Notes under the pieces: generated by a model
What the model was told of the DNA's origin: nothing
Seen by the model: only the letters and a program-made list of their open reading frames with translations
Databases searched by the model: none
In this document: in pieces, positions 35,748 through 53,866 of the stretch
How the letters are laid out: each line of letters begins with the position of its first letter
Numbering within the stretch: position 1 is the first letter of the stretch
DNA from: Halorussus rarus
Lineage (GTDB): Archaea > Halobacteriota > Halobacteria > Halobacteriales > Haladaptataceae
DNA: 64,000 nucleotides
Direction: 5' to 3'
NCBI RefSeq assembly: GCF_003369835.1
Contig: NZ_QPMJ01000003.1
Span: forward strand, 248,001-312,000
Position numbers and translations under genes: made by a program

Positions 35748-36701
35748 ATGAAGCGGTACCCCGAGACCCCCCGCGCCGCCGACGCGCCGCCCGGCCTGTT
35801 CGAGTCGGGGCACCTCTGGCTCCAGGAACTGGTCGACGGCGCCCACCTCCGGTTCCGCCTGCGGGAATCGGGCATGCTCGAATTCGGCGACCGGGACAGG
35901 GTCTATCGGGACACCGCCGCGCGAAGCGCGTCGAGCAGTCGGACGGGGTCCGACGACGCGGACGAGATCCCCGCGTCCTACCGCCACGCGGTCCGGCACG
36001 TCCGCGAGTCGTTCGACCGCGAGGCGCTCCGGGCGGCCCGCGAGGACCCCTCGTCGGTCGTCTTCTTCGGCGAGGCGACCGTCCGGTGCGGCGTCGACTA
36101 CGACTGGGACCGTACCCCCTCGTTCCTCGGGTTCGACGTCTGGGACGCCGACGCGCAGGGCGCGTCGAGCAGTCGGACGGGGTCCGACGACGCAGATGCG
36201 GGACAGTTCCTCCCGCCGGACGCGGTCGAGCAGGTGTTCGACCGCGTCGGACTCGACTCGGTCAACGTCTTCGCGAAGGAGGTCCGGGCCGCGGACTTCG
36301 ACCCCGAGGACTACGCGATTCCCGACTCGGCGTGGTACGACGGCCCCGCCGCGGGCGCGGTGGTCCGGAACAAGACCGGCCAGCGAGCCGTGATTCCCAA
36401 TCTCGACGTCGAGGAAGCGGCGGTCGACGAGACCGCGCCGGTCGACCCGTCGGCCGAGGACGCCGAAACGCGCGCCGAGGAACTGGCCGAGCGGTTCGTC
36501 ACCCGCGAGCGCGTCGAGGCGGTGGCCGACGACCTCGAAGCCCGGGGACGCCCAGCCACGTTCGACGCCGTCTTCGAGCGCGTGTTCGAGGCCGTCGCCC
36601 GCGAGGAGCACCGCCTGCTGTTCGGCGAGCGCGCGTCGGTCGACGTCGGCGCGTTCCGCTCGGCGGTGGCGGCCCGGACCCAGCGGCTCCGCGAGACCTG
36701 A
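35748..36701 (+). CDS. RNA-ligase-like protein with degenerate active site
   Basis: The 317-residue protein has the fold pattern of a haloarchaeal RNA-ligase-like family: HLWLQELVDGAHLRFRL, then VVFFGEATVR, TPSFLGFDVWDAD and GPAAGAVVRNKTGQRA. The expected motif I lysine (KxDG) is Leu28 in LVDG, and motif V, where lysines are expected after VVRN..., reads RAVIPN. Two insertions of the same ASSSRTGSDDAD peptide, at about residues 60-72 and 138-150, come from a 34-bp repeat. Without the lysine, nucleotidyl transfer is not expected, so it is a pseudoenzyme or a decaying gene. The reading frame is intact. Confidence 0.7.
   Translation: MKRYPETPRAADAPPGLFESGHLWLQELVDGAHLRFRLRESGMLEFGDRDRVYRDTAARSASSSRTGSDDADEIPASYRHAVRHVRESFDREALRAAREDPSSVVFFGEATVRCGVDYDWDRTPSFLGFDVWDADAQGASSSRTGSDDADAGQFLPPDAVEQVFDRVGLDSVNVFAKEVRAADFDPEDYAIPDSAWYDGPAAGAVVRNKTGQRAVIPNLDVEEAAVDETAPVDPSAEDAETRAEELAERFVTRERVEAVADDLEARGRPATFDAVFERVFEAVAREEHRLLFGERASVDVGAFRSAVAARTQRLRET
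35926..35959 (+). repeat. palindromic in-frame insertion element, copy 1
   Basis: These 34 bases recur identically at 36160-36193, 234 bp away and in the same codon phase. The core GTCGGAC-GGG-GTCCGAC (35938-35954) is a hairpin with 7-bp arms. GCGTC and GACGC extend the stem after a five-base bulge (35933-35937). It encodes ASSSRTGSDDA inside the RNA-ligase-like gene. Confidence 0.85.
36160..36193 (+). repeat. palindromic in-frame insertion element, copy 2
   Basis: This is the identical 34-bp copy of the element at 35926-35959, with the same hairpin core. It sits between FDVWDAD and FLPPDAVE, a position where a compact relative would need only two or three residues. Flanking codons differ from copy 1, so this is not simple slippage of a tandem repeat. 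Confidence 0.85.
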
Positions 36702-52543: not shown

Positions 52544-53866
52544 ATGGCACGACCGGTGCGAGACCGACTTGCCGAGACCCGACGCGAGTTCCACCGCTAC
52601 CCCGAGCCCGCGTGGCGCGAGTTCCACACGACCCACCGACTCGTCGAGGAGCTCGAACGGATCGGAGTCGACGAACTCGCGGTCGGCCCCGAGGCGTACG
52701 ACCCCGACGACCGGATGGCAGTTCCCGCGGACGACGACCTCGACGAGTGGCGCGACCGCGCCCGCGACCGGGGCGCCGACCCGGACCTGCTCGACCAGAT
52801 GGCCGGCGGGAACACCGGCGTCGTCGCCGTCATCGACCGCCGGGATACTGACGGCGACGCTCCGGCCGACGGCGACTCCGCCGCCCCCGCAATCGGCCTC
52901 CGCGTGGACATCGACGGCCTGTTCGTCGAGGAGTCGACCGGCGACGACCACGTCCCGGCGGTCGAGGGGTTCCGGTCGGAGACCGGCGAGACGATGCACG
53001 CCTGCGGTCACGATACCCACATGACGTGGGGGCTGGCGACCGTCGAGGCCGTCAAGGACAGCGACTTCGCGGGCCGTCTCGTCGTCTTCTTCCAGCCCGC
53101 CGAGGAGGTGTCGGGCGGCGGCCACCCGATGGCCGAGAGCCGGTTCGCCGACGACCTCGACTACCTGTTCGCGGTCCACGTCGGCCTCGACCACCCGACC
53201 GGCGAGGTGGTCGCGGGCATCGAGAAACCACTGGCGATGTGCCACGTCGACGCCACCATCCGGGGCACCTCGGCCCACGCCGGGAAGGCCCCGCAGGACG
53301 GCGACAACGCGATGCAGGCGCTCGGGACGGCCATCCAGAACGCCTACGGGATTCCGCGCCACGAGGACGGGATGACCCGGGTCAACGTCGGGAAGGCCGA
53401 GGCCGGCACGTCGAGCAACGTCATCGCCGAGCGCGCCGACGTGGCCGCCGAGGCCCGGGGCGAGACCACCGCGCTCATGGAGTACGCCAAGGGCCGACTC
53501 CGGCGGGTCTTCGAGAACTCGGCCGAGATGCACGGCTGCGACCTGAAGTTCGACGTCGTGAGCGAGTCGCCCCGGGCCGACAGCGACCCCGAACTCGTCG
53601 ACGTGATCGCGGACGTGGCCGAGGGCGTCGAGGGCGTCGAGACGGTCGTCCCCACCGCGGACTTCGGCGCGAGCGAGGACGCCACCTTCCTGATGGAGCG
53701 CGTCCAGGAGGAGGGCGGCCTCGCCTCCTACCTCATCGTCGGCACCGACCACCCCACCAGCCACCACACCCCGACGTTCGACGTCGACGAGCGCAGCCTC
53801 GAGACGGGTGTCGAGGTGCTGACCCGGTCGATACTGGCGGTCGGAGACGGCGGCCGGGTCGCGTAG
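52544..53866 (+). CDS. M20-family amidohydrolase (AbgB-like)
   Basis: The 440-residue metalloenzyme starts at ATG 52544. The metal and catalytic motifs are visible: LRVDIDGLFVEE, MHACGHDTHM, VVFFQPAEEVSGGGHP and VHVGLDHPTGEV, with the dimerisation region near SAHAGKAPQDGDNAM and a final TDHPTSHHTPTF. It cleaves an amide or N-acyl-amino acid bond. It could act on an acylated intermediate, but no specificity is visible. The family here lacks a signal peptide, so it is cytoplasmic. Confidence 0.9.
   Translation: MARPVRDRLAETRREFHRYPEPAWREFHTTHRLVEELERIGVDELAVGPEAYDPDDRMAVPADDDLDEWRDRARDRGADPDLLDQMAGGNTGVVAVIDRRDTDGDAPADGDSAAPAIGLRVDIDGLFVEESTGDDHVPAVEGFRSETGETMHACGHDTHMTWGLATVEAVKDSDFAGRLVVFFQPAEEVSGGGHPMAESRFADDLDYLFAVHVGLDHPTGEVVAGIEKPLAMCHVDATIRGTSAHAGKAPQDGDNAMQALGTAIQNAYGIPRHEDGMTRVNVGKAEAGTSSNVIAERADVAAEARGETTALMEYAKGRLRRVFENSAEMHGCDLKFDVVSESPRADSDPELVDVIADVAEGVEGVETVVPTADFGASEDATFLMERVQEEGGLASYLIVGTDHPTSHHTPTFDVDERSLETGVEVLTRSILAVGDGGRVA

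Follow-up and report, generated by a model that had tools for sequence, protein, structure and literature searches.

A repeat in a Halorussus RNA-ligase-family gene as two copies of a probable mobile palindromic element of haloarchaea

How does a single protein-coding gene come to contain the same palindromic sequence twice while its reading frame remains intact? This question is raised by a gene for an RNA-ligase-family protein in Halorussus rarus, located in a window of 64,000 nucleotides (contig NZ_QPMJ01000003.1, positions 248,001 to 312,000), which is the whole stretch of DNA analysed and to which all coordinates refer. As the initial annotation had stated, two identical 34-mers (GCGCGTCGAGCAGTCGGACGGGGTCCGACGACGC) occupy 35926-35959 and 36160-36193 of the forward strand, 234 bp (78 codons) apart and in the same codon phase. 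The best explanation, to which a probability of about 0.78 is assigned, is that the gene holds, twice over, a mobile palindromic element of haloarchaea which is built from two 7-bp hairpins, inserts within genes, is kept almost only in one frame and encodes a hydrophilic, acidic and flexible loop of 15 residues. Its mobility is inferred, since transposition has not been observed directly and no donor site has been matched to an acceptor site.

The repeat had originally been described as a 34-bp palindromic insertion with a 7-bp-arm hairpin and a bulged stem. Both the in-frame palindromic insert and this hairpin (hairpin 2, Table 1) were recovered in the present analysis, while the boundaries of the unit had to be redrawn: the 34-mer begins at the right arm of another hairpin, and the left end of the unit lies about 13 nt further upstream. 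The putative bulged stem is better regarded as this second hairpin just upstream, the left arm of which had fallen outside the 34 bp delimited. Most of the haloarchaeal matches to hairpin 2 (see below) were found to be preceded by an upstream hairpin with a 7-bp stem and a 3-nt loop that had formed no part of the query; its sequence varies between loci, yet its pairing is almost always perfect. The unit was therefore defined as 45 nt, comprising two successive hairpins, each with a 7-bp stem and a 3-nt loop, and GAC at the end, with the layout NNN-[7 bp, 3-nt loop]-4 nt-A-[7 bp, 3-nt loop]-GAC. No structured RNA family in Rfam was matched above its gathering score, the best ones remaining far below threshold. 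In-frame variants with a loop of 9 nt in hairpin 2 are present at four loci of the source genome (L242, L244, L245 and L246).

Table 1. Coordinates of the host gene, the two 45-nt units and their hairpins in the window.
Feature	Position	Strand	Sequence or encoded peptide	Remarks
Host gene, RNA-ligase-family protein	35748..36701	+		317 aa; PF09414 match 5.9e-7; 30 orthologues aligned
Copy 1, 45-nt unit	35913..35957	+	15 codons, T A A R S A S S S R T G S D D	Absent from orthologues
Copy 1, covariance model match	35910-35963			67.9 bits
Copy 1, hairpin 1	35916..35932	+	GCCGCGC-GAA-GCGCGTC	One mismatch
Copy 1, hairpin 2	35938..35954	+	GTCGGAC-GGG-GTCCGAC	Followed by terminal GAC, 35955-35957
Copy 2, 45-nt unit	36147..36191	+	A D A Q G A S S S R T G S D D	Insert common only to relatives G004 and G015
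Copy 2, covariance model match	36144-36197			68.1 bits
Copy 2, hairpin 1	36150..36166	+	GACGCGC-AGG-GCGCGTC	Perfect
Copy 2, hairpin 2	36172..36188	+	GTCGGAC-GGG-GTCCGAC	Followed by terminal GAC, 36189-36191

The covariance model scores both copies at 68 bits, whereas its next-best match in the window reaches only 23 bits. This weak match, at 52907-52954, and another of 19 bits at 2509-2553 were judged to be chance; the former was rejected as an element because it falls within a conserved part of an amidohydrolase and its stems are poorly formed. The two copies of the RNA-ligase-family gene differ from each other within the first 13 nt, and the next 34 nt are identical, an indication that the right-hand part was recently copied or converted. 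Because copy 2 is the older, as it is shared with two relatives while copy 1 is unique to this gene, and yet the cores are identical, homogenisation between the two copies within the gene is likely; the pair would then result from recent local copying or conversion involving copy 2. Simple gene conversion, which the initial annotation had named as the alternative that would refute an invading element, is likely to have a part in the history of this gene without being the sole cause of the repeat, given the dispersed family described below. At the place of copy 1 (window 35913), a further genome (G002, locus L006) carries a decayed or different insert, DADRLPSPNGRRESGDADAIP, with GACGCCGAC on both flanks.

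An AlphaFold model of the host protein, with a mean confidence of 86.8, gives the two inserts as its least-ordered predicted segments (47 and 53, the two lowest values), and a search of solved structures yielded no match to either the insert peptide or the host protein. In this protein, leucine replaces the lysine of the KxDG nucleotidyl-transfer motif (LVDG, window 35829-35831), and many Halorussus orthologues are likewise without it (QVDG, RVDG or QIDG). Because the lysine is missing in both, this RNA-ligase-family group may represent a catalytically dead lineage.

The distribution of the unit extends well beyond this gene. An exact scan of approximately 85,000 prokaryote genomes with hairpin 2 alone (AGTCGGACGNNGTCCGACGAC) returned 76 matches, of which 75 were haloarchaeal, against 1.4-2.4 expected by chance (Markov models of order 2-5, using an estimated haloarchaeal total of 2.6 Gb). 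The sole non-haloarchaeal match, in Gordonia, is without hairpin 1, and the same scan found none in Rickettsiales. With the covariance model (E up to 0.001), the unit was detected in at least 328 of 392 Halobacteriales genomes and in at least 86 of 95 genera. This census is a lower bound, with 14 candidates scored per genome, and it leans towards copies with a paired hairpin 1, for which the training copies had partly been chosen; the exact scan is free of this bias. All 18 Halorussus genomes contain the unit, with 6 to 31 matches each and about 29 copies in the source genome (E up to 0.05). Near copies of the core are present in 8 of the 28 genomes of the family, the source genome included, those of the relatives lying at other loci.

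Such recurrence, both in further genes and in further genera of haloarchaea, which a search of the genomes had been expected to reveal if the element were real, establishes a dispersed family. It also disposes of the simplest alternative, namely that the window copies are a coding-level duplication produced by chance local gene conversion and have no wider meaning. That view can draw on the source genome, in which a core with up to 3 mismatches occurs only at the two window sites, and is refuted with near certainty by the presence of the two-hairpin unit in unrelated genes of those 86 or more genera. Plasmids gave only a few haloarchaeal matches. Viral spread was considered and rejected, as IMG/VR, queried with two core variants, held no exact matches and phage records no relevant ones.

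Comparison of orthologues documents a clean insertion polymorphism, in that element-free genes are common and are distinguished from filled ones by a clean 45-nt gap. In the valyl-tRNA synthetase gene (valS) of Haloferax, the insert is missing from 14 of 15 genomes; the nearest empty gene (G393) shows about 10 differences from the filled one over about 440 aligned flanking nucleotides, three of which are adjacent at the junction (GAG TCC to GAC AGC). Most orthologues of a beta-CASP nuclease read VDDGETR and the filled ones have gained a clean 45 nt, the exceptions being a tandem pair (+90 nt) and one case of +42 nt, and entry has taken place after VLV, VLVD or VLVDD in different genera, that is, at three codon boundaries. 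For DNA polymerase X (polX), about 20 of 121 Natrialbaceae genomes carry extra codons at one loop. Seven of these inserts, distributed over more than one position, are recognisably the 45-nt element, which in Haloarcula is found at a different codon of that loop. At the level of aligned sequences, repeated independent entry of the element into tolerant loops is thereby demonstrated. This polX loop also holds, in three genera (loci L389, L405 and L409), another type of palindromic insert that keeps the frame, GEGTDGSRTSSDRGSDGS.

Duplications flanking the unit are inconsistent, with none beyond GAC in the beta-CASP nuclease and 9-14 nt at some other sites, and a repeat of the left flank follows the unit more often than in shuffles. 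The constant target-site duplication expected of a MITE was not found at the sites compared across orthologues, and the arms are variable. A target-site duplication that includes the whole left arm would fit the histidine kinases, the enoyl-CoA hydratase and some others, but was ruled out by the beta-CASP nuclease and polX, whose empty sites gain the whole 45 nt, left arm included.

Unrelated proteins carry copies of the element in their reading frames, a check that the initial annotation had called for, and the placement of these copies is one-sided. With the coding frame assigned by the third-position GC rule and not by annotation, a single frame and strand of the host gene accounts for 99 of 115 non-redundant perfect copies, 65 of 76 exact hairpin-2 matches, 43 of 47 matches in Halorussus and 66 of 69 order-wide (the four sets overlap). 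Stop codons are rare in five of the six frames of the unit, so stops alone do not explain this placement. The peptide of the used frame has a mean hydropathy of -1.59 and a net charge of -1.2, both the lowest among the six frames, and its hydrophilic, acidic character suits halophilic proteins. From this comparison, in which the peptide of the used frame ranks first of six in both hydrophilicity and acidity, it is inferred that selection would remove copies in the other frames.

Besides valS (a class I synthetase by Pfam and ValS by eye), polX and the beta-CASP nuclease, the hosts include the genes for MutS (mutS), adenylosuccinate synthetase (purA), enoyl-CoA hydratase, a universal stress protein, a carboxyl transferase, histidine kinases and a calcineurin-like phosphoesterase (Mre11-like by eye), which are unrelated and have no function in common. 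This bears on the proposal that the unit is a selected protein or RNA module, such as a linker, a modification site or an mRNA structure, that is convergent or kept for its function. The confinement to one frame and one strand and the palindromy retained in coding sequence would agree with it; the lack of a shared function and the absence of the insert from most orthologues, so that the host proteins presumably manage without it, render it highly improbable. At many histidine-kinase loci, including L237, L240 and L241, units form arrays in the N-box motif with NSVEHG repeated, and the conserved N-box motif itself constitutes the left arm of hairpin 1.

Both stems of the element were found to change by compensatory substitutions, as seen from the paired columns of the alignments. 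Double changes affect all 7 pairs of stem 1 and, in the Halorussus set, 13 of the 14 pairs across both stems, with 212 double-change cells as opposed to 54 in shuffles. Pairing in this set amounts to 98%, compared with 24-46% when the partner column is slid, and the fetched DNA contains 151 perfect double hairpins against 0 in a complement-not-reversed control. Moreover, the polX inserts of two genomes (G186 and G251) are identical save for loop 1, which reads TAC in one and the reverse complement GTA in the other; this is the only clear orthologous case of loop inversion. Template switching is known to be recognisable by arms that have become homogenised and loops that have been inverted (PMC8794818; PMC8604942). 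Because the loop inversion fits this pattern, polymerase template switching between the arms is the probable means by which they stay matched, and it would restore their complementarity after insertion.

With regard to the source of new copies, a MITE- or REP-like derivative of IS200/IS605, comparable to the PATEs of Haloquadratum and moved in trans by a hairpin-recognising Y1 transposase, has to be weighed. Hairpin ends and single-strand logic fit such an origin, haloarchaeal PATEs with near-terminal palindromes exist (PMC3119063), and 10 of the 18 Halorussus genomes encode Y1. Nevertheless, no Y1 transposase (PF01797) was found in the source genome, despite its roughly 29 copies, or in seven further Halorussus genomes that contain the unit; the number of copies does not track the number of Y1 genes, and the arms vary at almost all stem positions, which would not be expected of a hairpin with a fixed recognition sequence. 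This origin is thus considered unlikely. Since eight copy-bearing Halorussus genomes have no Y1, the element can at present do without an enzyme of the IS200/IS605 or RAYT kind, although past or foreign Y1 activity and a lost or unrecognised transposase are possible and not excluded.

Spread without any transposition, by homologous recombination, gene conversion and transfer of carrier genes with short homology determining the target, is an alternative that cannot be set aside, though it falls well short of being probable. The histidine-kinase copies in a shared motif and their tandem arrays, the identical core of the window copies despite the greater age of copy 2, the valS junction, which appears converted, and the excess repetition of the left flank all speak for recombination. 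What it does not accommodate is that units are found in many unrelated genes without flanking homology and at different codons of one loop. For the mobile palindromic element favoured here, new copies are inferred to come about when the hairpin-forming strand is copied in the course of replication or repair, or through an unidentified enzyme in trans, and spread would not require a resident Y1 (IS200/IS605/RAYT) transposase. A bolder version, advanced only tentatively and still open to considerable doubt, holds that the 45-nt double hairpin is a self-propagating coding palindrome that would multiply order-wide without a dedicated transposase, as strands fold and templates are switched while DNA is replicated or repaired, adapted to life in genes by an acidic disordered loop that suits halophilic proteins.

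Among known systems, the resemblance to Rickettsia palindromic elements (RPEs) pointed out in the initial annotation holds for the mode of insertion and not for membership, in view of length and host domain; no sequence comparison with RPEs underlies this statement. RPEs are in-frame palindromic repeats in unrelated genes that add extra peptides, sometimes two per gene, and no dedicated transposase is known for them (PMC10969869; PMC3733652). The haloarchaeal unit is also palindromic, lies in unrelated protein genes with the frame kept and occurs twice in the window gene. The first-described RPEs, on the other hand, are bacterial, about 150 bp long and within genes in nearly half of the copies (PMC10969869; PMC3733652), whereas the present unit is a double hairpin of 45 nt, the arms of which covary freely; it occupies a whole archaeal order and is far more strictly coding, approximately 86-96% of copies being in one coding frame.

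REPs tagged with CGTC or GTAG are short palindromes that form dimers and clusters, some of them within genes, with RAYT accompanying the GTAG type (PMC3733652). They are mostly intergenic, in contrast to the haloarchaeal unit, whose copies are nearly all coding apart from a Haloglomus subseries, and they bear an unpaired GTAG or CGTC tag; the unpaired end of the haloarchaeal unit is GAC/GTC, CGTC arising only by continuing into the stem. The survey of tagged REPs contains no word beginning with 'halo' (PMC3733652). Non-autonomous elements bearing palindromes or inverted repeats, the PATEs and SMRs, have been described in Haloquadratum (PMC3119063); PATEs differ from the 45-nt unit by their IS605-like ends, and SMR-A elements are about 110 bp long, have inverted terminal repeats and target other mobile elements instead of loops of housekeeping genes. 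By the tests made, the element does not appear to be a tagged REP, and it is not a PATE. Coding inverted repeats made by template switching, with arm homogenisation and loop inversion, are known from yeast (PMC8604942), and coding palindromes from nematomorph mitochondria (PMC6649704). These are likewise within coding sequence, but do not constitute a dispersed family with one consensus.

No such family had been known to the initial annotation, and none was found described in the searchable open-access literature; subscription journals were not covered, and priority is uncertain. To our knowledge, archaea would thereby acquire their first described family of palindromic elements inserted in frame. 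Since it extends to almost all genera of haloarchaea and has housekeeping enzymes among its hosts, the family provides a natural repeated experiment on loop gain in proteins and explains some of the length differences among conserved haloarchaeal proteins. In tractable hosts such as Haloferax, the long-open questions of how RPE-like elements move and why they are retained in frame become directly testable. The Haloglomus subseries (L365-L371 and L373) lies outside the usual coding frame; most of its members are flanked by sequences like CGCGCGAGCA and GAAGCGAGCGCG, and in most of them loop 2 reads TAG, a stop codon in the frame that copies elsewhere use.
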